Assembly (NCBI GenBank): GCA_030634615.1
Contig: DAOWAL010000015.1
Location: 1-14,154, forward strand
Source of the DNA: Candidatus Aenigmatarchaeota archaeon
GTDB lineage: Archaea; Aenigmatarchaeota; Aenigmatarchaeia; QMZP01; QMZT01
Direction of reading: 5' to 3'
DNA length: 14,154 bases
Under the pieces are notes generated by a model that searched no databases, was not told the DNA's origin, and saw only the letters and a list, made by a program, of their open reading frames with translations. Below are positions 3,950 through 12,827 of this stretch, one piece after another. The position numbers were made by a program, and so were the translations under genes. Within the stretch, counting starts at the first letter, position 1; the number at the start of each line of letters is the position of its first letter.

Positions 3950-3978
3950 CGTGAATTACAGTGTTTCATCTTAAAAAC

Positions 3979-4065
3979 GTTACAAAATGTATATTTTGTT
4001 ACGTAAAACGTAACATTTTTTGACAATAAGTTACGAAAACGTAACTTTTATATAAAAGTGTAACG
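3979..4065. promoter_or_regulatory. Recombinase promoter with GTTACG/CGTAAC operator array
   Basis: Two inverted repeats, GTTACG-TAAAA-CGTAAC (3998-4014) and GTTACG-AAAA-CGTAAC (4030-4045), have centres 31.5 bp apart, three helical turns. A half site GTTAC lies at 3979-3983 and another, GTAACG, at 4060-4065. The TATA box TTTTATATAAAAG (4046-4058) sits directly beside the second palindrome and is centred about 25 bases before the ATG at 4077. A protein bound here would block TBP/TFB or the start site, so this looks like a repressor operator. The adjacent winged-helix protein or the recombinase itself are candidates. Confidence 0.6.
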
Positions 4066-4655: not shown

Positions 4656-4713
4656 AACGCATCACTGCAAGCATATTTAGACTAAAAAAGTAGGACGTTT
4701 AAACCGGTCAAAA

Positions 4714-4966: not shown

Positions 4967-5164
4967 TTATTTTGAACCTGAATCGTCGTGAGTTGCAATT
5001 CCTATGCCGATTATCGCTAAAAGAACGCCAATAAACGCTAGGAACATGTAAACTGGAAAGTATATGGGAGCATCTGTTACGTAAGTGATGTATCCTCCTA
5101 TAAGACCAGTACCAAGAAGTGCCACTCCTGCGACAAGTAGACCTATCATAAGGTATTTTTCCAT
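4967..5164 (-). CDS. Small two-helix membrane protein (65 residues)
   Basis: The family is not recognised. Two hydrophobic helices are clear: about residues 4-27, rich in glycine and alanine (VAGVALLGTGLIGG), and about 34-58 (FPVYMFLAFIGVLLAIIGIGI). A short loop with one aspartate joins them and a polar tail DDSGSK ends the protein. The helical hairpin would sit in the cytoplasmic membrane, probably as an oligomer or an accessory subunit. The start at 5164 has a TATA-like element (5186-5195, minus strand) centred about 26 bases upstream. The neighbour on the other side is divergent. No motif suggests a function. Confidence 0.65.
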   Translation of the reverse strand: MEKYLMIGLLVAGVALLGTGLIGGYITYVTDAPIYFPVYMFLAFIGVLLAIIGIGIATHDDSGSK

Positions 5165-5244: not shown

Positions 5245-5490
5245 ATGCCTCAGATAATTTTCGAACATAAAGTCAATGGAAGTGGTCAGATGAAGGCTGA
5301 ACAAATTTTAAAGGCAGTAAAAGAGGTATATACTGATGCACACGAAACGGGAATTCAACCTGGAGATGGCAACTACGCAATTTATTTCTATACGTCATTA
5401 GAAGGCAGACTTTCAAAAATTAATGAAACATTAAAAAAATATGGTAGTGGAATCGTAATCGATGGTTTTACTCCCGTAGGAATGTTGTAA
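5245..5490 (+). CDS. Small protein of unknown function (81 residues)
   Basis: The family is not recognised. The start at 5245 is chosen because the TATA-like AAAATTTAAG is centred about 27 bases upstream; longer upstream reading would run through this promoter. The predicted order is strand (PQIIFEHKV), helix (residues 15-33), loop, strand (GNYAIYFYTS, 42-51), helix (53-67) and strand (SGIVIDGF), an alpha/beta arrangement such as a ferredoxin-like fold. There are no cysteines, membrane segments or catalytic motifs. A weak copy of the intergenic repeat begins at its stop codon, so it may be the first unit of the array of repeat-separated genes. Confidence 0.6.
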   Translation: MPQIIFEHKVNGSGQMKAEQILKAVKEVYTDAHETGIQPGDGNYAIYFYTSLEGRLSKINETLKKYGSGIVIDGFTPVGML

Positions 5491-5514
5491 ACAATTCAGT
5501 CTTTAAGCGTTAAT
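5487..5514 (+). repeat. Degenerate copy of the array repeat
   Basis: The stretch GTAAACAATTCAGTCTTTAA, ending in GCGTTAAT, aligns with the right half of the copy at 5737-5796 (GTAACAATCAGTCTTAAACG) if two or three single-base gaps are allowed. The left half of the repeat is not recognisable. As with the clearer copies, it starts directly at the stop codon of the preceding plus-strand gene. It might be chance. Confidence 0.3.
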
Positions 5515-5544
5515 TATAAAAGGGACCTTGACCAAGAAATTGAA

Positions 5545-5712
5545 ATGAACGAATTTCTTATAATTCTGCTGGCTGTCGGAGGTTTTGTTTCTACTGCATT
5601 CATAGGGTATGAAATGTTCAAAAACAACGACGACGATGAGAGTTTTACACGTAAAACAGCAGAAGATGCCATGAGAATAAAGGCAAAACAATTCGAAGAA
5701 ACATACTTCTAA
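5545..5712 (+). CDS. Small single-pass membrane protein (55 residues)
   Basis: This short gene starts at ATG 5545 and ends at TAA 5710-5712. One N-terminal hydrophobic helix (residues 3-20, FLIILLAVGGFVSTAFIG) acts as a membrane anchor. An acidic linker (NNDDDES, 27-33) and a charged helical tail (about 34-55, ending in EETYF) follow. A TATA-like element at about 5510-5522 is centred about 28 bases upstream, as in the neighbouring leaderless genes, which supports expression. The opposite strand is also open here but has no promoter and gives a low-complexity cysteine/phenylalanine-rich product, so this strand is preferred. It lies between two copies of the array repeat. Function unknown; it could be a small accessory membrane protein. 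Confidence 0.55.
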   Translation: MNEFLIILLAVGGFVSTAFIGYEMFKNNDDDESFTRKTAEDAMRIKAKQFEETYF

Positions 5713-5736
5713 TTTTAAAATAAATCTATATCTTCG

Positions 5737-5796
5737 AAAAACATTTCTCCCCACCAACCCAAAAATAACGTAACAATCAGTCTTAAACGGTTTTTA
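5737..5796 (+). repeat. Array repeat, copy 1
   Basis: This 60-base copy has three parts: a left block ending CTCCCCACCAA (5737-5757), a middle AAAAATAACGTAA (5761-5773) and a right block CTTAAACGGT (5782-5791). The left 21 bases and the middle 13 are identical to copy 3. It lies 24 bases after the stop of the 55-residue gene and before the methyltransferase-like gene. Confidence 0.75.
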
Positions 5797-5849
5797 ATAA
5801 ATGAATTTACAAAGAAAATGCTATTAAATAACATTAGATTTAATTTATT

Positions 5850-6344
5850 ATGATGAGGAACAAAAAAGAAAACATATTTAATAGATACCTCTTAGCAAAA
5901 CCAACTATAAGAATGGTGATTGAGTGGCCAATGTTAATAGTGCTAGGAATAATCGCAAATATATTTTCTCAATCCACAATCCCATTTTATCCATTCTCAA
6001 ATATATTCGGCTTTGTTTTGCTAATAATGGGTATTATAATCCATGGATTTTCTCATAAAATTCATAAACAAGCACATTATCAATCCGATAAAATCGAGAA
6101 ACTAATAACTGAAGGTATTTATTCGAAGATAAGACATCCAGGGTATTTAGGTTTAATGTTAATGTATCTTGGCGTTGCATTTACGTGGGGATTTACCTGG
6201 ATTTTAATCCCGGCTGTTCTTTTTGTTATACTCAGTATATTAACGGCACTCAAAGAAGAAGATATAATGAAGGAAAAATTTAGTAAAGAATATGAGGAAT
6301 ATGTGAAGCAAGTGCCATGGAGATTTATACCTAATTTATTTTAG
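5850..6344 (+). CDS. Isoprenylcysteine carboxyl methyltransferase-like membrane protein
   Basis: The 164-residue integral membrane protein has the C-terminal signature of the ICMT/PEMT family: GIYSKIRHPGYLG (89-101), then EED (136-138) and EEYVKQVPWRFIP (149-161). Family members bind S-adenosylmethionine with these segments and methylate lipid-linked or small hydrophobic substrates; prokaryotic members are mostly uncharacterised. Membrane helices appear at about 24-41, 51-68, 98-114 and 117-134. The true substrate cannot be inferred, since prenylated CaaX proteins are not expected in archaea. The start at 5850 (a second ATG follows at once) has a TATA-like TTAAATA centred 23-26 bases upstream. 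The stop codon is directly followed by copy 2 of the array repeat, and copy 1 precedes the promoter, so the gene forms a repeat-bounded unit. Confidence 0.8.
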   Translation: MMRNKKENIFNRYLLAKPTIRMVIEWPMLIVLGIIANIFSQSTIPFYPFSNIFGFVLLIMGIIIHGFSHKIHKQAHYQSDKIEKLITEGIYSKIRHPGYLGLMLMYLGVAFTWGFTWILIPAVLFVILSILTALKEEDIMKEKFSKEYEEYVKQVPWRFIPNLF

Positions 6345-6388
6345 CTCACCAACTCAAAAATAATCGTAATAGTTGACTTTAGACGACG
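6345..6388 (+). repeat. Array repeat, copy 2
   Basis: The most diverged clear copy, starting one base after the stop codon of the methyltransferase-like gene. It reads CTCACCAACTCAAAAATAA, then TCGTAATAGTTGACTTTAGA. It matches copies 1, 3 and 4 in the CACCAA block, the AAAAATAA-CGTAA block (one inserted T) and the TTGACTTTA block. The left AAAAACATTT part is missing. Confidence 0.6.
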
Positions 6389-6422
6389 ACGCAATTTTAA
6401 ATACAAAAAGTATTTTTTTACT

Positions 6423-7073
6423 ATGAGTAGACTTCACAAGAATAAACAGTATTATTCAGAAACCGCTCGAACCACTGAAAAGGTCCGAGAGGAGATAAAC
6501 AAGGGCCTAGCTGTTCTAAACGATGTCGATGAAAATATAATTGCTTTCTTCGGTTCACATAAAGTCAATAAAGATAGTGAATATTACAAGCACTGCAAAA
6601 ACGTTGCACACGAACTTGGGAAGAAAGGATATGCCATTCTTAGCGGAGGTGGTCCTGGTATAATGCATGCTGCAAACAGTGGAGCAAAAGAATCAGGAAC
6701 AAATTCAATAGGTTTGAAAGCTGAACTCCTTTCGGGAGAAAGAGTCACAGACCCGATTTTCACAAAAGAGCTTTCCTTCCATTTCCTCTTTGTTAGAAGG
6801 TTTATCATGTCAATAAAGAGTGAAGCCTTGATATTTTACCCAGGCGGATACGGAACCATGAATGAACTTTTCGAATATGCAGTTCTTATGCAAACAGGCA
6901 TTGTCGATAAGGTGCCGATAATATGCGTAAATAAAAAATATTGGGAAGGGATGTTTGATTGGTTAAAAAACAATCCATTAAAAGAAGACTTCTTCATCCA
7001 TGACATAAGGGATTTGAATCTTCTACACTTAGTTGATGACTACGAAGAAATATTAAAACTGATTGAAAAATAA
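6423..7073 (+). CDS. LOG-family Rossmann-fold protein (TIGR00730-like)
   Basis: The 216-residue protein carries the two hallmark motifs of the LOG / so-called lysine-decarboxylase-like family: a glycine-rich SGGGPGIMHAAN (74-85) and the phosphate-binding PGGYGTMNE (140-148). Arginines R125 and R126 precede the second motif and a family acidic residue, E148, follows it. Characterised members are phosphoribohydrolases that release a base from nucleoside monophosphates, as in cytokinin activation; archaeal substrates are unknown. Length and motif spacing are normal and no domain is missing. It has its own TATA-like element, AATTTTAAATAC (6393-6404), centred about 24 bases before the start. It lies between copies 2 and 3 of the array repeat. 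A role in nucleotide salvage or signalling is the best guess. Confidence 0.85.
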   Translation: MSRLHKNKQYYSETARTTEKVREEINKGLAVLNDVDENIIAFFGSHKVNKDSEYYKHCKNVAHELGKKGYAILSGGGPGIMHAANSGAKESGTNSIGLKAELLSGERVTDPIFTKELSFHFLFVRRFIMSIKSEALIFYPGGYGTMNELFEYAVLMQTGIVDKVPIICVNKKYWEGMFDWLKNNPLKEDFFIHDIRDLNLLHLVDDYEEILKLIEK

Positions 7074-7075
7074 GT

Positions 7076-7142
7076 AAAAACATTTCTCCCCACCAAACGA
7101 AAAATAACGTAATCACTGGCTTTAAACGGTTAAACGATATCT
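7076..7142 (+). repeat. Array repeat, copy 3
   Basis: The 67-base copy starts 2 bases after the LOG-family stop codon and runs into the last bases of the convergent HExxH gene, ending CGATATCT at 7135-7142. Its first 21 bases are identical to the start of copy 1. From AAATAACGTAATCA to CGATATCT it matches copy 4 at about 35 of 41 positions. Confidence 0.8.
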
Positions 7143-7776
7143 AAGTCTCACGTAATTTATCCATCGCACTTTTAATAAAACCGTATACTATTATGGCATA
7201 ATTGTCTCTTATTGCTTCATTCTCAGTAAATTCCCCGTTTAATGCAATTTTACATACTTGACTTAGCTCAGAATCTCCAAAGTTTTTTTTCACAAATACA
7301 CCTTGGACTCTATGTGCTCGACATTCAAAATCTGTAAAAGCAGTAAGCACCTTTCCAACAGGATTATTTCTATCGCCTCCCTTCCAGACACTCTTTGCTT
7401 CTTCCAATAGGCGTTTCTCACCACCATCTTCAAGATAACTCCTCGCTTCATTGAAAATAATTTCCCTGAAAGGTTCTATATTCATGTGATGATATGTTTC
7501 ATGTATACCAGAACCAATCATTGCTGCATCACTCGTTGGTCTTTCATCAAACATCATATCACCATCAAAAATGTTATAAGTGGCACCAGCACCGCAATCT
7601 TCGAATCCAACTGCCATGTTGGATATTTTTTTAGTTTTAGTATTTCCGCTAGTAATTCTTTCTTGTAAACTACTGGCAATTCTGGCATAACCGCCGTTGG
7701 ACCTATACCCTATAGCTTCAACTACCTCTTGAGGTGTTAGGTTTCTCCCGTATTTTCGAATAAGTATATTTTTCAT
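7141..7776 (-). CDS. Putative zinc metallopeptidase-like protein with HExxH motif
   Basis: The 211-residue protein is not recognised as a named family. It contains the zincin signature HETYH (92-96) in SGIHETYHHMN, where H92 and H96 would bind zinc and E93 would act as general base. A second conserved-looking segment, TDFECRAHRVQG (148-159), offers E151 or H155 as the third zinc ligand, at the distance seen in gluzincin-type or ImmA-like folds. The N-terminus (about 14-41) has short helices; the region around 64-80 is rich in aspartate. No signal peptide or membrane segment is seen, so it would be cytoplasmic. The start at 7776 has a TATA-like element centred about 24 bases upstream. The gene is the only one in the array on the minus strand, bounded exactly by copies 3 and 4 of the array repeat. 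Confidence 0.7.
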   Translation of the reverse strand: MKNILIRKYGRNLTPQEVVEAIGYRSNGGYARIASSLQERITSGNTKTKKISNMAVGFEDCGAGATYNIFDGDMMFDERPTSDAAMIGSGIHETYHHMNIEPFREIIFNEARSYLEDGGEKRLLEEAKSVWKGGDRNNPVGKVLTAFTDFECRAHRVQGVFVKKNFGDSELSQVCKIALNGEFTENEAIRDNYAIIVYGFIKSAMDKLRET

Positions 7777-7822
7777 TATTAATTAGTAGTATATTTTATA
7801 ATATAAAGCTTTCTATTAGCTA

Positions 7823-7890
7823 ATAAACATTTATCCCACTCGGTTAATAAAATAACGTAATCATTGACTTTAAACGGATTTCCGATATCT
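7823..7890 (+). repeat. Array repeat, copy 4
   Basis: The 68-base copy lies between the divergent starts of the HExxH and acetyltransferase genes. It shares AAATAACGTAATCA (7849-7862), CTTTAAACGG (7868-7877) and the end block CGATATCT (7883-7890) with copy 3. Its left half is more diverged (ATAAACATTT, ATCCCACT). No further copy is seen downstream. Confidence 0.75.
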
Positions 7891-7971: not shown

Positions 7972-8460
7972 ATGATAATAAGAAAAGCCAAGTTAAAGGA
8001 CGTTCCTGATATTGTTAAAATGTGGAAAGAGTTCATGGAAGAACATGACAAAATTGTCACATCCAGTGAATCAAAACTCAGAGAACAACTCAAAAGAAAA
8101 AAGGAAGCGGAGAAGCTTTTCAAGGATTATATTGCAAAAAATATCAGATCTAAAAATTCTATATTATTTATAGCAGAAGTTAATGGTGAACCAATTGGAT
8201 ACAACATGAGTCACATAAAGCCAGACATACCGATTTTTGAAATAGATAAACTTGGTCTTGTAAGTGACATGTTTGTTAAAAAAAGACACAGAGGATCAAA
8301 AATATCATCCATGTTTAAAGAAAATGCGTTTAACTGGTTTAAGAAAAAAGGTGTAAAATACGCAAGTATTATATTGCACGCTCCAAATAGTTATGCTCAC
8401 TCTGTTTACAAAAACTGGGGTTTTATTGATCACAAAATAGAAATGCGAAAGAAGTTGTAG
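7972..8460 (+). CDS. GNAT-family N-acetyltransferase
   Basis: The protein of 162 residues (from the ATG at 7972) has a GNAT fold: N-terminal strand IIRKAKLKDVPDIVKMWKEF, a long charged helix (about 31-58), strands SILFIAEVNGEPIGYNM (63-79), the acetyl-CoA-binding motif A VSDMFVKKRHRGSKISSMF (97-115, with R105-G108 forming the pyrophosphate loop) and the C-terminal VYKNWGF (145-151). The substrate is unknown. An in-frame ATG at 7957 and one at 7864 are possible earlier starts; 7972 is preferred because IIRKAKLKDV is the usual N-terminus of the family. It follows copy 4 of the array repeat, but no copy follows it, so it may belong to the stable chromosome rather than the array. Confidence 0.8.
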   Translation: MIIRKAKLKDVPDIVKMWKEFMEEHDKIVTSSESKLREQLKRKKEAEKLFKDYIAKNIRSKNSILFIAEVNGEPIGYNMSHIKPDIPIFEIDKLGLVSDMFVKKRHRGSKISSMFKENAFNWFKKKGVKYASIILHAPNSYAHSVYKNWGFIDHKIEMRKKL

Positions 8461-8503
8461 ACAAAGGTTAAATAGCTCAGTTTTCTAAATTAAATTGATT
8501 ACT

Positions 8504-8893
8504 ATGGTCAGAATAACTATGGATTATTCCACGCTTGCAATTCACGACAGAGACCCTGTCATAAAAGAGCTGAAAAAGCTAGATACTGACAGAAAAATAA
8601 ACATATACAATGCAATAACACTTGAAAGAAACATTGAGACCATGACAGAATCCGAAGAGAAAATATATGAAAAACTTAAAGAAATGGTATTTGGTAAGGA
8701 AAGAAAAATTAACCTTACAGACCATGCAGACTTACTTGTTCTGATGAATCATTTGAAGAGCGACAGGGACTTCTTTGTAACATTTGACAAGAAAAAATAT
8801 GAAAACTTGTCAAAACATAAACACATCAAAATAACAGTACCTGATGCTAAATTTTTAAAAGAAATTAAGACAAGGTTATCATTGAGTGATTGA
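8504..8893 (+). CDS. PIN-like domain protein
   Basis: The 129-residue protein looks like a divergent PIN-type nuclease domain. The acidic residues expected in the metal site occur in order: D7 in ITMDYS, E41 or E45 in TLERNIE, D76 in DHADLLVLMNH and D95 in FFVTFDKK, the last pair with the normal spacing. The FVTFD strand is characteristic. PIN nucleases cut single-stranded RNA and include VapC toxins and RNA-processing enzymes. No antitoxin-like gene lies upstream; the next gene is a cysteine-rich protein read from the same transcript. The start at 8504 is preferred over the upstream TTG at 8495; a TATA-like GGTTAAATAGC (about 8467-8477) is 30 bases upstream. The assignment is moderate because the overall sequence is diverged. 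Confidence 0.55.
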   Translation: MVRITMDYSTLAIHDRDPVIKELKKLDTDRKINIYNAITLERNIETMTESEEKIYEKLKEMVFGKERKINLTDHADLLVLMNHLKSDRDFFVTFDKKKYENLSKHKHIKITVPDAKFLKEIKTRLSLSD

Positions 8894-9137: not shown

Positions 9138-11837
9138 ATGAAATTAGGTAATATTATATTCTTCGTAATTTTCTTTGTAATAATGTTATTTTCAACAGTC
9201 ATGAACATATTCGGCGATTTATTTTGGTTCACTTCTATTGGATATGAAAACGTCTTCCTGGAAATATTCACGACAAACGTAATGCTTGCATTCTTGTTCG
9301 GACTTTCGTTTTTTGCTTTCATGTTTATCAATTTGAAAGTTGCAAAAAGACTTGCCCTGAATAAAACAGAAAGAAAAGGTAAAAGAAGTATAGACATGTT
9401 ATTAATTGTAATTACACTTGTACTTTCTTCATTTGTAGGAACTGCTTTTGCAAGATGGGAAGTTTTCTTAAAATACCTAAATCACACACCATTTGGTACA
9501 GTTGATCCCGTCTTCTCAATAGATATCGGCTTTTATGTTTTTTCATTGCCCTTCTTTAACCACATACTTGGTTTTCTGTTAACTACTACTGTACTTTCAA
9601 TTGCTTTGACATTTGGCGGTTACCTGTTTTACACAAGCTCAGTTGTCAAGAAGAAAGTAGATGAAGAAATTGAAGTAGTACCTGGAATGGCCACTTACAG
9701 TATTGACTGGGATTCAATTGGTAAAAAAGCTGAATCACACATAAGTTTTTTGGTTGGAATACTTTTCTTTTTGATTTCATATGGCATATACCTAGCAAGA
9801 TATGGTATATTATTCTCATCCAATGGTGTTGTTTTTGGAGCAGGGTATACTGACCTTAACGTGGTATTACCATTGTTAAATCTACTGATGCCAATTGCTG
9901 CTGTTGTAGGTATTGTGTTCATGGCAAACGTGAAAATGGATAAGTGGAGATACAACATCTATGCGGTTGGAGCATTTGTCGGAATTGCTGTTTTAGGTCT
10001 TATGATATCTGGCGTTACCCAAGGGTTTATCGTTAGCCCGGACGAGTTTAACATGGAAAAAGTGTACATAGAAAAGAACATAGAAAACACCCTAAAAGCG
10101 TATAATATAGATAATATTGAAGAAAAAATGTTCCCTATTTCATATGACCTATCACCTGAAGATATAGAAAACAACAGAGGAACAATAGACAATATAAGAC
10201 TATGGGACTGGAGACCACTTATCCAGACATATGATCAATTGCAGCTCTTCAGGACATATTACAACTTTAATGACGTGGATATAGACAGATACGATATCAA
10301 CGGAGAATACAAAGAAGTAATGGTTTCGGCAAGAGGTCTTGATACACGGGGACTTGCAGAAAATGCTCAGACATGGGTAAATAATCACATGGTTTACACA
10401 CATGGCTACGGTGTTGTCATGAACCCTGTTGATAAAGTTTCTAATGGCCTTCCAGAATTCTACATAAAGGATATTCCACCTTCTTCAGATTATTTTGAAA
10501 TAGAAAGACCTGAATTATACTACGGTGACGGATTTAGTGGTTATGCTGTTGTAAAGACGAAAACAGAAGAATTTGATTACCCAAGCGGGGAAAGCAATAC
10601 TTACACAACTTATGAAGGCACTGGTGGTGTACCTCTATCTGACGGATTCAGAAGACTTGCTTACGCGGCAAAATTCAGTTCTGTTGAATTACTTGTTTCA
10701 GGATCCATGACACCGGAAAGCAGGCTTATTATGTACAGGGACATACGTTCTCGTGTTAACAAAGTGGCAAACTTTTTATTGTTCGATCGTGATCCATACA
10801 TAGTTGTTTCAGAAGGTAAACTGTACTGGATGATAGACGCTTACACTGTAACAGATATGTACCCCTACTCTGAACCAGTTTATCATTCAGGGTATGATAT
10901 AGAATTCAATTACATGAGAAACTCTGTAAAAGTAGTTGTGGATGCCTACAATGGAGATATTCAGTTCTACGTTGTAGATAGCAGTGATCCGATAATACAG
11001 ACATACAGTAAGATATTCCCTGAATTATTCAAGGATTACAGTGAAATGAATGATGATCTCAAAAAACACATTAGATACCCCGAAGATTTTTTCAGAATAC
11101 AGGCAGAACTTTATTCAGAATACCACATGAAAGATGCAAGGGTATTCTACAACAAGGAAGACAGCTGGGAAATACCAAATGAAATATACAGGAAAAGAAG
11201 ACAGGAAATGCAGCCATATTACATAATGACAAAGCTTGCTGGTCAGGAAAGTGAAGAATTCATACTAATGTTGCCATTCATACCACGAGGAAAAGAAAAC
11301 TTAATAGCATGGATGGCTGCAAGATCTGACGAACCTAATTATGGAAAACTTTTGGTTTACCAGTTCTCAAAGCAGGTCCTGACATACGGTCCCATGCAAA
11401 TAGAGGCAAAAATTGACCAGGACACTGACATATCTCAGAAAATCACACTGTGGGACCAGTCGGGTTCTTCAGTAATCAGAGGAAATACACTTGTCATACC
11501 AATAGAAGATTCAATACTCTATATTGAACCAATTTATCTAGAAGCAACAGAGAAAGGAACACTTCCACAGTTAAAGAGAGTAATCGTAGCATACGGTGAC
11601 GAAATATCAATGAAGGAAACACTTGCTGAAGCACTTTCAGATGTACTGGGAAGTCAGATATCCACAGGCCCATCAGGGACAATAGACATAAAGGAGCTTC
11701 CTGAGGAAATTTTAGAACAGATATCTGACACATACGATAAAGCTCAAAACGCCCTTAAAAATGGAAATTTGGCCGAATACGCACAGTATGTGGAACAGAT
11801 AGGACAAATAATAAACAACTGGAAAAGTGATTCTTAG
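9138..11837 (+). CDS. UPF0182-family large membrane protein (899 residues)
   Basis: This belongs to UPF0182 / COG1615, a family of roughly 900-residue membrane proteins without a known function, found in actinobacteria, cyanobacteria and some archaea. Seven hydrophobic helices lie in the first third, at about residues 5-27, 44-66, 85-105, 132-165, 200-218, 240-262 and 268-292. A large soluble region (about 300-899) follows, probably outside the cytoplasm. It has the family's conserved strings: WDWRPLIQTYDQLQLFRTYY, DVDRYDI-like DVDIDRYDI, YTHGYGVVMNPV, EFDYPSGE, DRDPYIVVSEGKLYWMIDAY, RNSVKVVVDAYNGD, HIRYPEDFFRIQAELYSEYH and GPMQIEAKIDQD. It is full length and well conserved. The last 39 bases, with the stop, are duplicated at 12241. 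Confidence 0.93.
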   Translation: MKLGNIIFFVIFFVIMLFSTVMNIFGDLFWFTSIGYENVFLEIFTTNVMLAFLFGLSFFAFMFINLKVAKRLALNKTERKGKRSIDMLLIVITLVLSSFVGTAFARWEVFLKYLNHTPFGTVDPVFSIDIGFYVFSLPFFNHILGFLLTTTVLSIALTFGGYLFYTSSVVKKKVDEEIEVVPGMATYSIDWDSIGKKAESHISFLVGILFFLISYGIYLARYGILFSSNGVVFGAGYTDLNVVLPLLNLLMPIAAVVGIVFMANVKMDKWRYNIYAVGAFVGIAVLGLMISGVTQGFIVSPDEFNMEKVYIEKNIENTLKAYNIDNIEEKMFPISYDLSPEDIENNRGTIDNIRLWDWRPLIQTYDQLQLFRTYYNFNDVDIDRYDINGEYKEVMVSARGLDTRGLAENAQTWVNNHMVYTHGYGVVMNPVDKVSNGLPEFYIKDIPPSSDYFEIERPELYYGDGFSGYAVVKTKTEEFDYPSGESNTYTTYEGTGGVPLSDGFRRLAYAAKFSSVELLVSGSMTPESRLIMYRDIRSRVNKVANFLLFDRDPYIVVSEGKLYWMIDAYTVTDMYPYSEPVYHSGYDIEFNYMRNSVKVVVDAYNGDIQFYVVDSSDPIIQTYSKIFPELFKDYSEMNDDLKKHIRYPEDFFRIQAELYSEYHMKDARVFYNKEDSWEIPNEIYRKRRQEMQPYYIMTKLAGQESEEFILMLPFIPRGKENLIAWMAARSDEPNYGKLLVYQFSKQVLTYGPMQIEAKIDQDTDISQKITLWDQSGSSVIRGNTLVIPIEDSILYIEPIYLEATEKGTLPQLKRVIVAYGDEISMKETLAEALSDVLGSQISTGPSGTIDIKELPEEILEQISDTYDKAQNALKNGNLAEYAQYVEQIGQIINNWKSDS

Positions 11838-11855
11838 CGACTATTCTTGAACATT
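11799..11855. repeat. 57-bp direct repeat, copy A
   Basis: This spans the last 12 codons and stop of the UPF0182 gene plus 18 bases beyond. It matches 12241-12297 at 53 of 57 positions without gaps. Read on the minus strand it also contains MFKNSR-stop, nearly the same C-terminal tail as that of the MBL-fold gene encoded in copy B (MFKNNR-stop). Both copies thus hold the meeting point of two convergent genes. Confidence 0.92.
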
Positions 11856-11913: not shown

Positions 11914-12180
11914 TTATTGTGTTTTTTTAGATTCACTTTTGAATGTATATACTGGGCGTTTTGCAAATTCCCTTACCAAACTATCTTCGTACTCGGTTAA
12001 TGTGTCTATACTTTCTATAAAAAGTGGGTCTATATGTGTAATACCGCCTGGGTGCTGAGGATTGAATTTGGCCAAGTAAACATTCCCTTTTCCATCCACT
12101 GAAACAGTTCCGTAGAAAGGATTGAATCCTTCTACTTTCACCTTCATTGGATTTCCACTATAAAGTATATTCAAACTCAT
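11914..12180 (-). CDS. Unknown 88-residue protein in a duplication-bounded insert
   Basis: The family is not recognised. The first two thirds look beta-rich (MSLNILYSG, MKVKVEGFN, GTVSVDGKGNVYLAKF, residues 1-40), followed by HPGGITHIDPLF, a short helix (EYEDSLVREFAKR, about 63-75) and a polar lysine/serine/threonine tail. A small beta-barrel or SH3-like module is possible. No membrane segment or cysteine is present. A minus-strand TATA-like element (about 12201-12210) is centred 26 bases before the start, so the gene carries its own promoter. It lies between the two 57-bp direct repeats that duplicate the UPF0182/MBL gene junction, so it appears to have been inserted there. Confidence 0.6.
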   Translation of the reverse strand: MSLNILYSGNPMKVKVEGFNPFYGTVSVDGKGNVYLAKFNPQHPGGITHIDPLFIESIDTLTEYEDSLVREFAKRPVYTFKSESKKTQ

Positions 12181-12240: not shown

Positions 12241-12297
12241 ATAGGACAAATAATAGAGAATTGGAAAAGTGATTCTTAGCGATTATTCTTGAACATT
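12241..12297. repeat. 57-bp direct repeat, copy B
   Basis: The second copy of the UPF0182 3' end and junction. Read on the plus strand it encodes IGQIIENWKSDS-stop, compared with IGQIINNWKSDS-stop in the intact gene. Read on the minus strand it supplies the last residues (MFKNNR) and stop of the MBL-fold gene. Four differences separate it from copy A; 385 bases lie between them. Confidence 0.92.
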
Positions 12298-12827
12298 CCA
12301 CCATGACCAGGAACTATCCAGTCAGCAACTTCTTTAACTTTCTTCCTGCTCTTTTTGAGTGTTTCCATATCAACAGCGAACTTATCATGTTCCGAAGCAT
12401 TCTCTTTCCATATAACATCACCACAAACTGCTATGGTTCCGTCTTTTGTTTTTACAAGTAGTGTTATACTATCATTACTGTGGCCAGGTGTTTTGATAAT
12501 GGACATGTTTTCATTTACATGGCCATTACAATCTTTCCAGAAATCTCCTTCCCACCATCCCCAATAATCAAGAGCTTTTGCATTGGGGAACATTCCAATA
12601 CTTTTGTAATGATCCATGTGGGAATGCGTTATGAAAACAACGTTTATGTCATCCACTGTAAGTCCTTCTTTACTAAGAGCATCGATAAGAACTTTCTGGG
12701 ACGGGAGTGTTCCCGGGTCAATTATCATATTTAGTCCGTCATCCTGAACTAAAACAATTGTAGAACATGCATGACCATTACTATCAGCTGATGTGTATCC
12801 TTCAATCAAAATTTTCAATTGCGCCAT
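12276..12827 (-). CDS. Metallo-beta-lactamase-fold hydrolase, MBLAC1-like
   Basis: From the ATG at 12827 the protein has 183 residues. All metal-ligand motifs of the fold are present: IIDPG (35-39), THSHMDH (67-73), TPGHSNDS (113-120, H116), CGDV (135-138, D137) and VPGHGG (172-177, H175). The order and sequence, including the N-terminal CSTIVLVQDDGLNMIIDPGT, are closest in character to MBLAC1-like proteins, which belong to the glyoxalase II/RNase Z-type superfamily; the substrate is unknown. It overlaps the 3' end of the upstream HisB-like gene by 26 bases, so the two form an operon. In-frame ATGs at 12833 and 12836 are possible starts; AGGGAG just upstream is a weak ribosome-binding site. 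Its 3' end lies within direct repeat copy B. Confidence 0.82.
   Translation of the reverse strand: MAQLKILIEGYTSADSNGHACSTIVLVQDDGLNMIIDPGTLPSQKVLIDALSKEGLTVDDINVVFITHSHMDHYKSIGMFPNAKALDYWGWWEGDFWKDCNGHVNENMSIIKTPGHSNDSITLLVKTKDGTIAVCGDVIWKENASEHDKFAVDMETLKKSRKKVKEVADWIVPGHGGMFKNNR

Follow-up and report, generated by a model that had tools for sequence, protein, structure and literature searches.

Do the direct repeats that separate single genes in a stretch of archaeal DNA serve as recombination sites? The stretch, 14,154 nucleotides of contig DAOWAL010000015.1 from a Candidatus Aenigmatarchaeota archaeon and called the window below, carries a row of genes separated by copies of a repeat of about 60 bp, with a tyrosine recombinase gene nearby. 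An earlier note on this DNA, made from its letters only, had likened the row to an integron cassette array. We confirmed that the repeats are genuine and more widespread than first described. We lean towards the view that a cassette-type system of gene gain uses them for recombination: units of mostly one gene would have been inserted serially between genes, at three places and with the site always pointing the same way. The genome (G000) is a metagenome-assembled genome (MAG) of about 1.1 Mb that is 83% complete. The window is its contig C34 and holds array 1; array 2 lies on contig C24 (locus L009) and array 3 on contigs C45 and C66.

Copies of the repeat

With the copy at 7076-7142 as the sole query, 10 further matches were found in the genome (E from 2.5e-13 to 6.2e-5), so the repeat is not a product of chance. 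A sequence-only profile, R1, was trained on 14 copies. It was scored on 150 of 503 candidates in G000, on at most 125 candidates in each relative and, under stricter filters, on at most 32 candidates in each of 155 other genomes of the phylum; weak copies may escape at each of these settings. R1 gave 18 matches in G000 at E <= 10. The 14 training copies lay on C34 (four), C24 (eight) and C45 (two), all at E <= 8.1e-11. Two copies on C66 had E values of 1.3e-4 and 4.8e-4, the latter being truncated by the start of the contig. A half copy was found at C24:11124-11148 (E = 0.26), and a match at C34:5432-5470 (E = 0.29), which lies inside the gene at 5248-5490, was taken as chance. In all, G000 holds 14 full copies, the two on C66 and two half copies, one of them in the window. 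Among the 150 of 503 candidates scored, no strong R1 match lay beyond the three arrays.

The four copies described by the earlier note were all present on the plus strand, and the distances from the preceding stop codons agreed with its account (5712 to 5737, 6344 to 6345 and 7073 to 7076). The second copy, however, spans about 6335-6392 rather than 6345-6388. Of a weak copy proposed at 5487, the right half (CAGTCTTTAAGCG from about 5497, by eye) was recognized, but a full copy was not, and R1 did not list it. Repeat orientation was uniform on every contig (4/4, 8/8, 2/2 and 2/2). Arrays 1 and 2 also share their repeat direction on the syntenic map, where C34 and C24 are adjacent contigs. The single invariant five-base run across the 14 aligned copies is CGTAA.

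Genes between the repeats

Array 1 starts after a resident gene at 5548. A methyltransferase-like gene, a LOG gene, an inverted HExxH gene and a GNAT gene follow, each preceded by a repeat, and the resident gene at 8495 closes the row. The small membrane protein gene at 5548-5712 had been counted among the cassettes in the earlier note; its homologues in relatives mark it as resident instead. Array 2 begins at a helix-turn-helix (HTH) gene and ends at pdxT. Between them stand, in order, a repeat, an inverted S26-peptidase-like gene, a repeat, a 313-aa gene, a repeat, an inverted 92-aa gene, a repeat, a 147-aa gene, the half repeat, an ATPase gene, a repeat, an inverted 100-aa gene, a repeat, an inverted 189-aa gene, a repeat, a 60-aa gene and a last repeat. 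A doubtful inverted 68-aa open reading frame (ORF) lies beside the 313-aa gene in the same unit. Array 3 reads ftsZ, repeat, PQQ-repeat protein gene, repeat and inverted 343-aa gene on C45, and repeat, inverted 140-aa gene, repeat, secE, nusG and L11 on C66 (gene names by eye); we infer that the two parts join across a contig gap. In all three arrays it is mostly a single gene that lies between repeat copies. The gene-repeat-gene-repeat layout was thus borne out, although the earlier note had seen just one of the three arrays.

With the GNAT gene and the 68-aa ORF included, there are 16 array genes. Six had a Pfam family above the cut-off (the methyltransferase, LOG, GNAT, S26-like, ATPase and PQQ genes) and 10 had none. 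For duplicated array genes, marginal matches of 36-37 residues were all that appeared. Seven genes between repeats lie along the repeat direction and seven opposite to it, as assigned from ORF lists with the 68-aa ORF, the GNAT gene and the 80-aa gene at 5248-5490 left out. Of 17 genes, 10 are preceded by a TATA-like box, among them genes facing either way, and eight of the boxes lie at -27 to -31. Comparatively, 6.4% of random stretches from the same contigs had such a box, these stretches being mostly coding and therefore a lenient control. The free direction of the genes, together with the TATA-like boxes, speaks against regulatory signals and in favour of sites of recombination.

Empty sites in relatives

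We compared the 16 array genes by tblastn with 23 loci fetched from relatives, which are parts of genomes and not whole genomes. The PQQ-repeat protein was the sole gene with a match, and this was distant (27-33%) and lay at a non-syntenic place in loci of G012 and G015. The 80-aa gene at 5248-5490 also had no tblastn match in the 23 loci. Contig C42 of relative G006 (locus L165) reads HerA, MarR-like gene, recombinase and homologues of the window genes at 4967, 5548, 8495 and 8890, followed by UPF0182, a homologue of the gene at 12802, a methyltransferase, HTH, pdxT, pdxS and ino1. The right-border gene of array 1 was found in five of the eight same-family relatives, and in three of the five loci (G002, G006 and G007) the homologues of the two border genes are adjacent. 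The borders of array 2, HTH and pdxT, touch in G006; pdxT was located in just two of the eight relatives. At the place of array 3, secE and nusG lie close behind ftsZ in five of eight relatives (G001, G002, G003, G004 and G007), and the contig of G006 ends there. In these loci the array genes are absent between the same neighbours.

Since the border genes are adjacent in relatives, the array genes seem to have arrived together with the repeat. Mis-binning is excluded because arrays 1 and 2 share contigs with resident genes. Two outcomes that would have told against a cassette system did not occur: no relative kept the same array genes in place, and copies of the repeat are not spread through the genome without a link to gene gain. 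The cassette-like layout therefore stands: additional genes separate what are adjacent genes in relatives, and full repeats are confined to arrays of such additional genes.

Distribution of the repeat

R1 revealed nothing convincing in the 155 other genomes of the phylum, at up to 32 candidates each. The single match, in G018 (5.3e-5), lies inside a reading frame by eye and was taken as chance, as were weak matches, one each, that we viewed in G005, G003 and G001. A search of the syntenic contigs of G006 and G007 did not reveal the repeat. Exact core patterns had no match in viral_contigs or in genome_contigs, the latter of which may omit the genome of the window, and the array DNA had no match in phage or plasmid records. 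No description of such arrays was found among the titles and abstract openings listed in searches of open-licence literature. The study of Ghaly et al. 2022 (PMC9668308) detected archaeal integrons by attC sequence and structure. Such detection would be expected to miss the present repeats.

The tyrosine recombinase and its own site

The recombinase of the window is the sole full-length PF00589 match in the assembly. Its best model was the archaeal XerA, below the cut-off (158.5 vs 220 bits). The other PF00589 matches were a 39-position scrap at the end of C111, which passed the cut-off, and one match on C93, which did not. Close homologues (66-83% identity) were found in five of 60 relatives, all in other families of the same order, and homologues at E <= 1e-45 in five of 154 further genomes of the phylum sample. 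A site comparable to the dif-like site of the window (Table 1) lies about 100 nt upstream of the homologues in G009, G012, G015, G016a and G028; in G016b, the same site centre has weaker arms (6/11 positions match). The arm was absent from the repeats, the median copy standing at the 55th percentile of random stretches, which ruled out a recombinase arm in the repeat. We assign the dif-like site to the recombinase and not to the array.

A different recombinase (29-34% identity) occupies the same place beside the MarR-like gene in the same-family relatives G006, G007 and G001, none of which showed a convincing repeat. A tail, NASLQAYLD, at window positions 4656-4685 after the stop codon of the recombinase gene, resembles the C-terminus of the G006 recombinase, and the G007 and G001 proteins do not have the NASLQAYL tail. 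Because of this match, which involves one relative, the window recombinase appears from sequence comparison to have replaced the family's resident one in place. Downstream of the recombinase, whatever its type, a GTTTAAAC palindrome is present in G000 (4697-4704), G006 (5282-5289 of L165) and G007 (L166, three copies). It resembles the TTTAAACG part of the repeat and may be related to it; it would be the candidate for an attI site, which in integrons adjoins the integrase gene.

To look for arrays near recombinase homologues, we also scanned 138 loci for families of at least three direct repeats. The window array and array 2 were recovered as positive controls; array 3, with two copies per contig, is invisible to such a scan. 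Further families appeared in L043, L091, L092, L119, L120, L131, L158 and L205. We rejected L043, where the repeats lie inside coding sequence (a 1061-aa frame), L205 (coding repeats, judged from spacings in multiples of 3 and from the sequence), L091 (short TGGGAAT-type boxes) and L092 (palindromic blocks that by eye resemble miniature inverted-repeat transposable elements). At a laxer threshold alone, L194 showed three short copies with spacings in multiples of 3. No cassette-like array was recognized in L082-L160, the families in bacterial L119, L120, L131 and L158 not having been inspected. In G012, whose recombinase is 83% identical, no cassette-like array was found in 827 of 929 kb (89%), in pieces of up to 20 kb. 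The recombinase has its own dif-like site and no array was found in the scanned 89% of G012; therefore, a link between recombinase and repeats was not supported. The role that the earlier note had implied for the neighbouring recombinase is accordingly left without support, its conserved site being one that the repeats lack and no cassette-like array having been recognized near close homologues elsewhere.

Some homologue loci had peculiarities of their own. In L048 (7023-8225, C111 of G000), the scrap of recombinase C-terminus continues, close to where the contig ends, as a frame resembling a P-type ATPase and is a possible chimera. The 3′ end of the G012 recombinase gene is duplicated (85%) at 10866-10920 and 12010-12064 of L034, about 1 kb lying between the copies. 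On C44 of G016 (L036, 12434-18371), two inverted recombinase copies with inverted flanks enclose a cargo that by eye resembles an ATPase-type protein and a DNA methylase.

Competing explanations

A canonical cluster of attC sites lacking integron-integrases (CALIN) would explain the layout, and archaea, Aenigmatarchaeota among them, are reported to have attC arrays (PMC9668308). However, the single-strand fold of the 14 copies was no better than that of shuffles (mean z of +0.19 for the top strand and +0.24 for the bottom strand), and this explanation seems very improbable. Classical attC sites contain the boxes R'' (RYYYAAC) and R' (GTTRRRY). An R''/R' pair was present in none of the 28 copy-strands, and with the folding result this ruled out a hairpin or attC reading; the earlier note had already remarked that the repeats lack the palindromic ends of classical attC sites. 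Integron cassette genes generally share one orientation, whereas the genes here divide 7 vs 7, and the sole full-length tyrosine recombinase scored 82.9 bits against the integron-integrase model TIGR02249, vs a cut-off of 265, although an unseen IntI is possible in a MAG that is 83% complete. A dif (pdif) module does not fit either: no 28-bp 11-6-11 sites bound the units, and pdif sites alternate in orientation, whereas the copies here are co-oriented on each contig. A conserved regulatory role for the repeat, be it as promoter, terminator, insulator or RNA element, is likewise very improbable. Such a role would suit its position at gene ends and the TATA-like boxes close behind it for some genes. 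Yet repeat orientation is independent of gene direction, full copies are confined to arrays of extra genes, and none was seen at ancestral gene boundaries, either here or in relatives, including the syntenic contigs of G006 and G007. In addition, no Rfam family matched the repeat, the sole match being a tRNA elsewhere. A promoter, terminator or insulator role is unlikely because gene direction is 7:7 and the TATA-like boxes occur in both orientations.

It is a poor bet that the repeats are substrates of the 192-aa tyrosine recombinase close by, as the integrase of a Xer-driven, integron-like platform beside array 1. It is the only full-length enzyme of its kind in the assembly, array 1 is about 1 kb away from it, and its type and the arrays are both peculiar to G000 within the family; but its upstream site recurs at five other close homologues and its arm is not in the repeats, and no cassette-like array was recognized in the scanned part of G012 or in the inspected homologue loci. 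We give somewhat more credit, while still considering it unlikely, to arrays built by transposition or homologous recombination, in which repeat-ended units inserted beside existing copies (one-ended or rolling-circle transposition) or the repeats served as homology. This would suit the lack of a site-specific enzyme linked to the repeats, the half copies at 5492 and C24:11124-11148, and another extra gene of the window that has a duplicated gene end of 57 nt on its flanks. The strict co-orientation and the compact units speak against it, as does the lack of a recognisable transposase among the array genes, although 10 of the 16 have no family above the cut-off.

How the arrays might have formed

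In the cassette reading, units of mostly one gene and one site each would have been inserted one by one at the three intergenic places. Serial insertion would leave arrays with a repeat at both ends (repeat-gene-repeat-gene-repeat), and the gene inside a unit could face either way, many having a TATA-like box of their own. Circular one-site intermediates are suggested by the fixed site direction, the free gene direction, the compact units, the terminal repeats and the insertion between ancestral neighbours. Insertion would be site-specific, neither homologous nor transpositional. As for the enzyme, its gene may have escaped the 83%-complete MAG or may have been lost, or the protein may act in trans from elsewhere. 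As to the crossover position, all four left/right combinations around CGTAA are present in the 14 copies (7, 3, 2 and 2), a hint, though an equivocal one, of exchange near this invariant run. The fuller proposal is a non-integron cassette system in a DPANN archaeon, with circular, mostly single-gene cassettes, double-stranded non-folding sites of about 60 bp, several loci, a gene direction left free by promoters that the cassettes themselves carry, and a recombinase yet to be recognised. We put it forward tentatively, as a possibility to which we give rather less than even weight.

Several observations weigh against the cassette reading. No enzyme is tied to the repeat sites. Agreement in the CGTAA test was 10/14 within copies and 6/11 within cassettes, which is equivocal, and the divergent copy at C66:508-557 lacks CGTAA. 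No inverted core site stands out in the repeat, and such a site was ruled out since 16 of 100 column shuffles reached the best score. In G001 and G003 no homologue of the 5548 gene lay within the 1.5 kb fetched, so the borders of array 1 are not neighbours there; G005 and G008 have no secE beside ftsZ in the examined locus; and array 3 crosses a contig gap. In G007, pdxT and HTH are about 410 nt apart, with one 117-aa ORF and no repeat between them, and this place may attract insertions for other reasons. The earlier note had proposed to look for strains in which these repeats enclose other genes. The repeat turned up in no further strain or species with a different set of genes, and exchange was thus not seen. 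The note's proposal that the repeats are recombination sites draws partial support, from the cassette layout and the empty sites but not from the recombinase.

Integrons are the best-known stockpilers of single genes in cassette arrays. If the cassette reading is true, a reduced archaeon of about 1.1 Mb has a second, unrelated route to such arrays, and cassette capture has more than one evolutionary origin. Such a system would further offer a testable route of gene gain for poorly understood archaea, one that splits even the conserved run ftsZ | secE-nusG-L11.

Other features of the window and of array 2

Table 1. Features of the window and their positions in the 14,154-nucleotide stretch.
Feature	Position	Strand	Remarks
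dif-like 11-6-11 site, ACGTTACAAAA TGTATA TTTTGTTACGT	3977..4004	+	upstream of recombinase; comparable sites at close homologues
tyrosine recombinase, catalytic domain only, 192 aa	4077..4655	+	PF00589 1e-33; catalytic residues conserved (alignment A2)
80-aa gene	5248..5490	+	unmatched at the syntenic place of both G006 and G007; half repeat next to it
right-half repeat	5492..5520	+	by eye; unlisted by R1
small membrane protein, resident, left border of array 1	5548..5712	+	homologues in G006, G007, G002
repeat copy 1	5737..5796	+	similarity search, alignment, R1
array gene, PEMT/ICMT-like membrane methyltransferase	5850..6344	+	PF04191 8.9e-12; absent at the syntenic place
repeat copy 2	6335..6392	+	overlaps stop codon of preceding gene
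array gene, LOG/lysine-decarboxylase family	6423..7073	+	PF03641 5.3e-25; absent at the syntenic place
repeat copy 3	7076..7142	+	query copy; R1
array gene, 211 aa, HETYH motif (by eye)	7141..7776	-	inverted relative to repeats; no Pfam family; absent at the syntenic place
repeat copy 4, final one of array 1	7823..7890	+	similarity search, alignment, R1
GNAT acetyltransferase, between repeat copy 4 and resident gene	7972..8460	+	PF00583 6.2e-10; absent at the syntenic place
resident gene, right border of array 1	8495..8893	+	homologues in relatives (see text)

Elsewhere in the window, the 3′ end of the UPF0182 gene forms a 57-nt direct repeat (93%) at 11799-11855 and 12241-12297. It brackets a single inverted 88-aa gene (11914-12180) without a match in the syntenic contigs, an extra gene with a duplicated gene end whose repeat differs from the array repeat. 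Near array 2, a small gene group at 14783-15422 of L009, by eye similar to a toxin-antitoxin pair, lacks the repeat and was unmatched in the relatives' loci that were compared. The HTH gene that borders array 2 (L009, about 14645-14073) has an in-frame stop close to its start.

Comparison with known systems

Integrative elements can accumulate in tandem at a single att site, as SCC (staphylococcal cassette chromosome) elements do. As in such accretion, direct repeats lie here between successive insertions and at both ends; in contrast, the present units mostly hold one gene and bring no recombinase with them. Integron cassette arrays and CALINs, archaeal ones included (PMC9668308), likewise have mostly single genes between co-oriented repeats of about 60 bp, and many of the genes are without a known family. 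Unlike them, the present sites do not fold and have no R''/R' boxes, the genes face either way, several loci are occupied, and no IntI was found. The dif (pdif) modules of Acinetobacter plasmids (PMC6449649, PMC12907356) are also discrete gene modules between site-specific recombination sites. These are Xer sites, whereas the sites here are about 60 bp long, co-oriented and without the dif-like arm of the local recombinase. The recombinase of the window with its 11-6-11 site fits the pattern of archaeal Xer/dif (PMC2958812) and archaeal tyrosine recombinases (PMC8371274), although the protein is a catalytic domain alone and its site differs from the array repeat.

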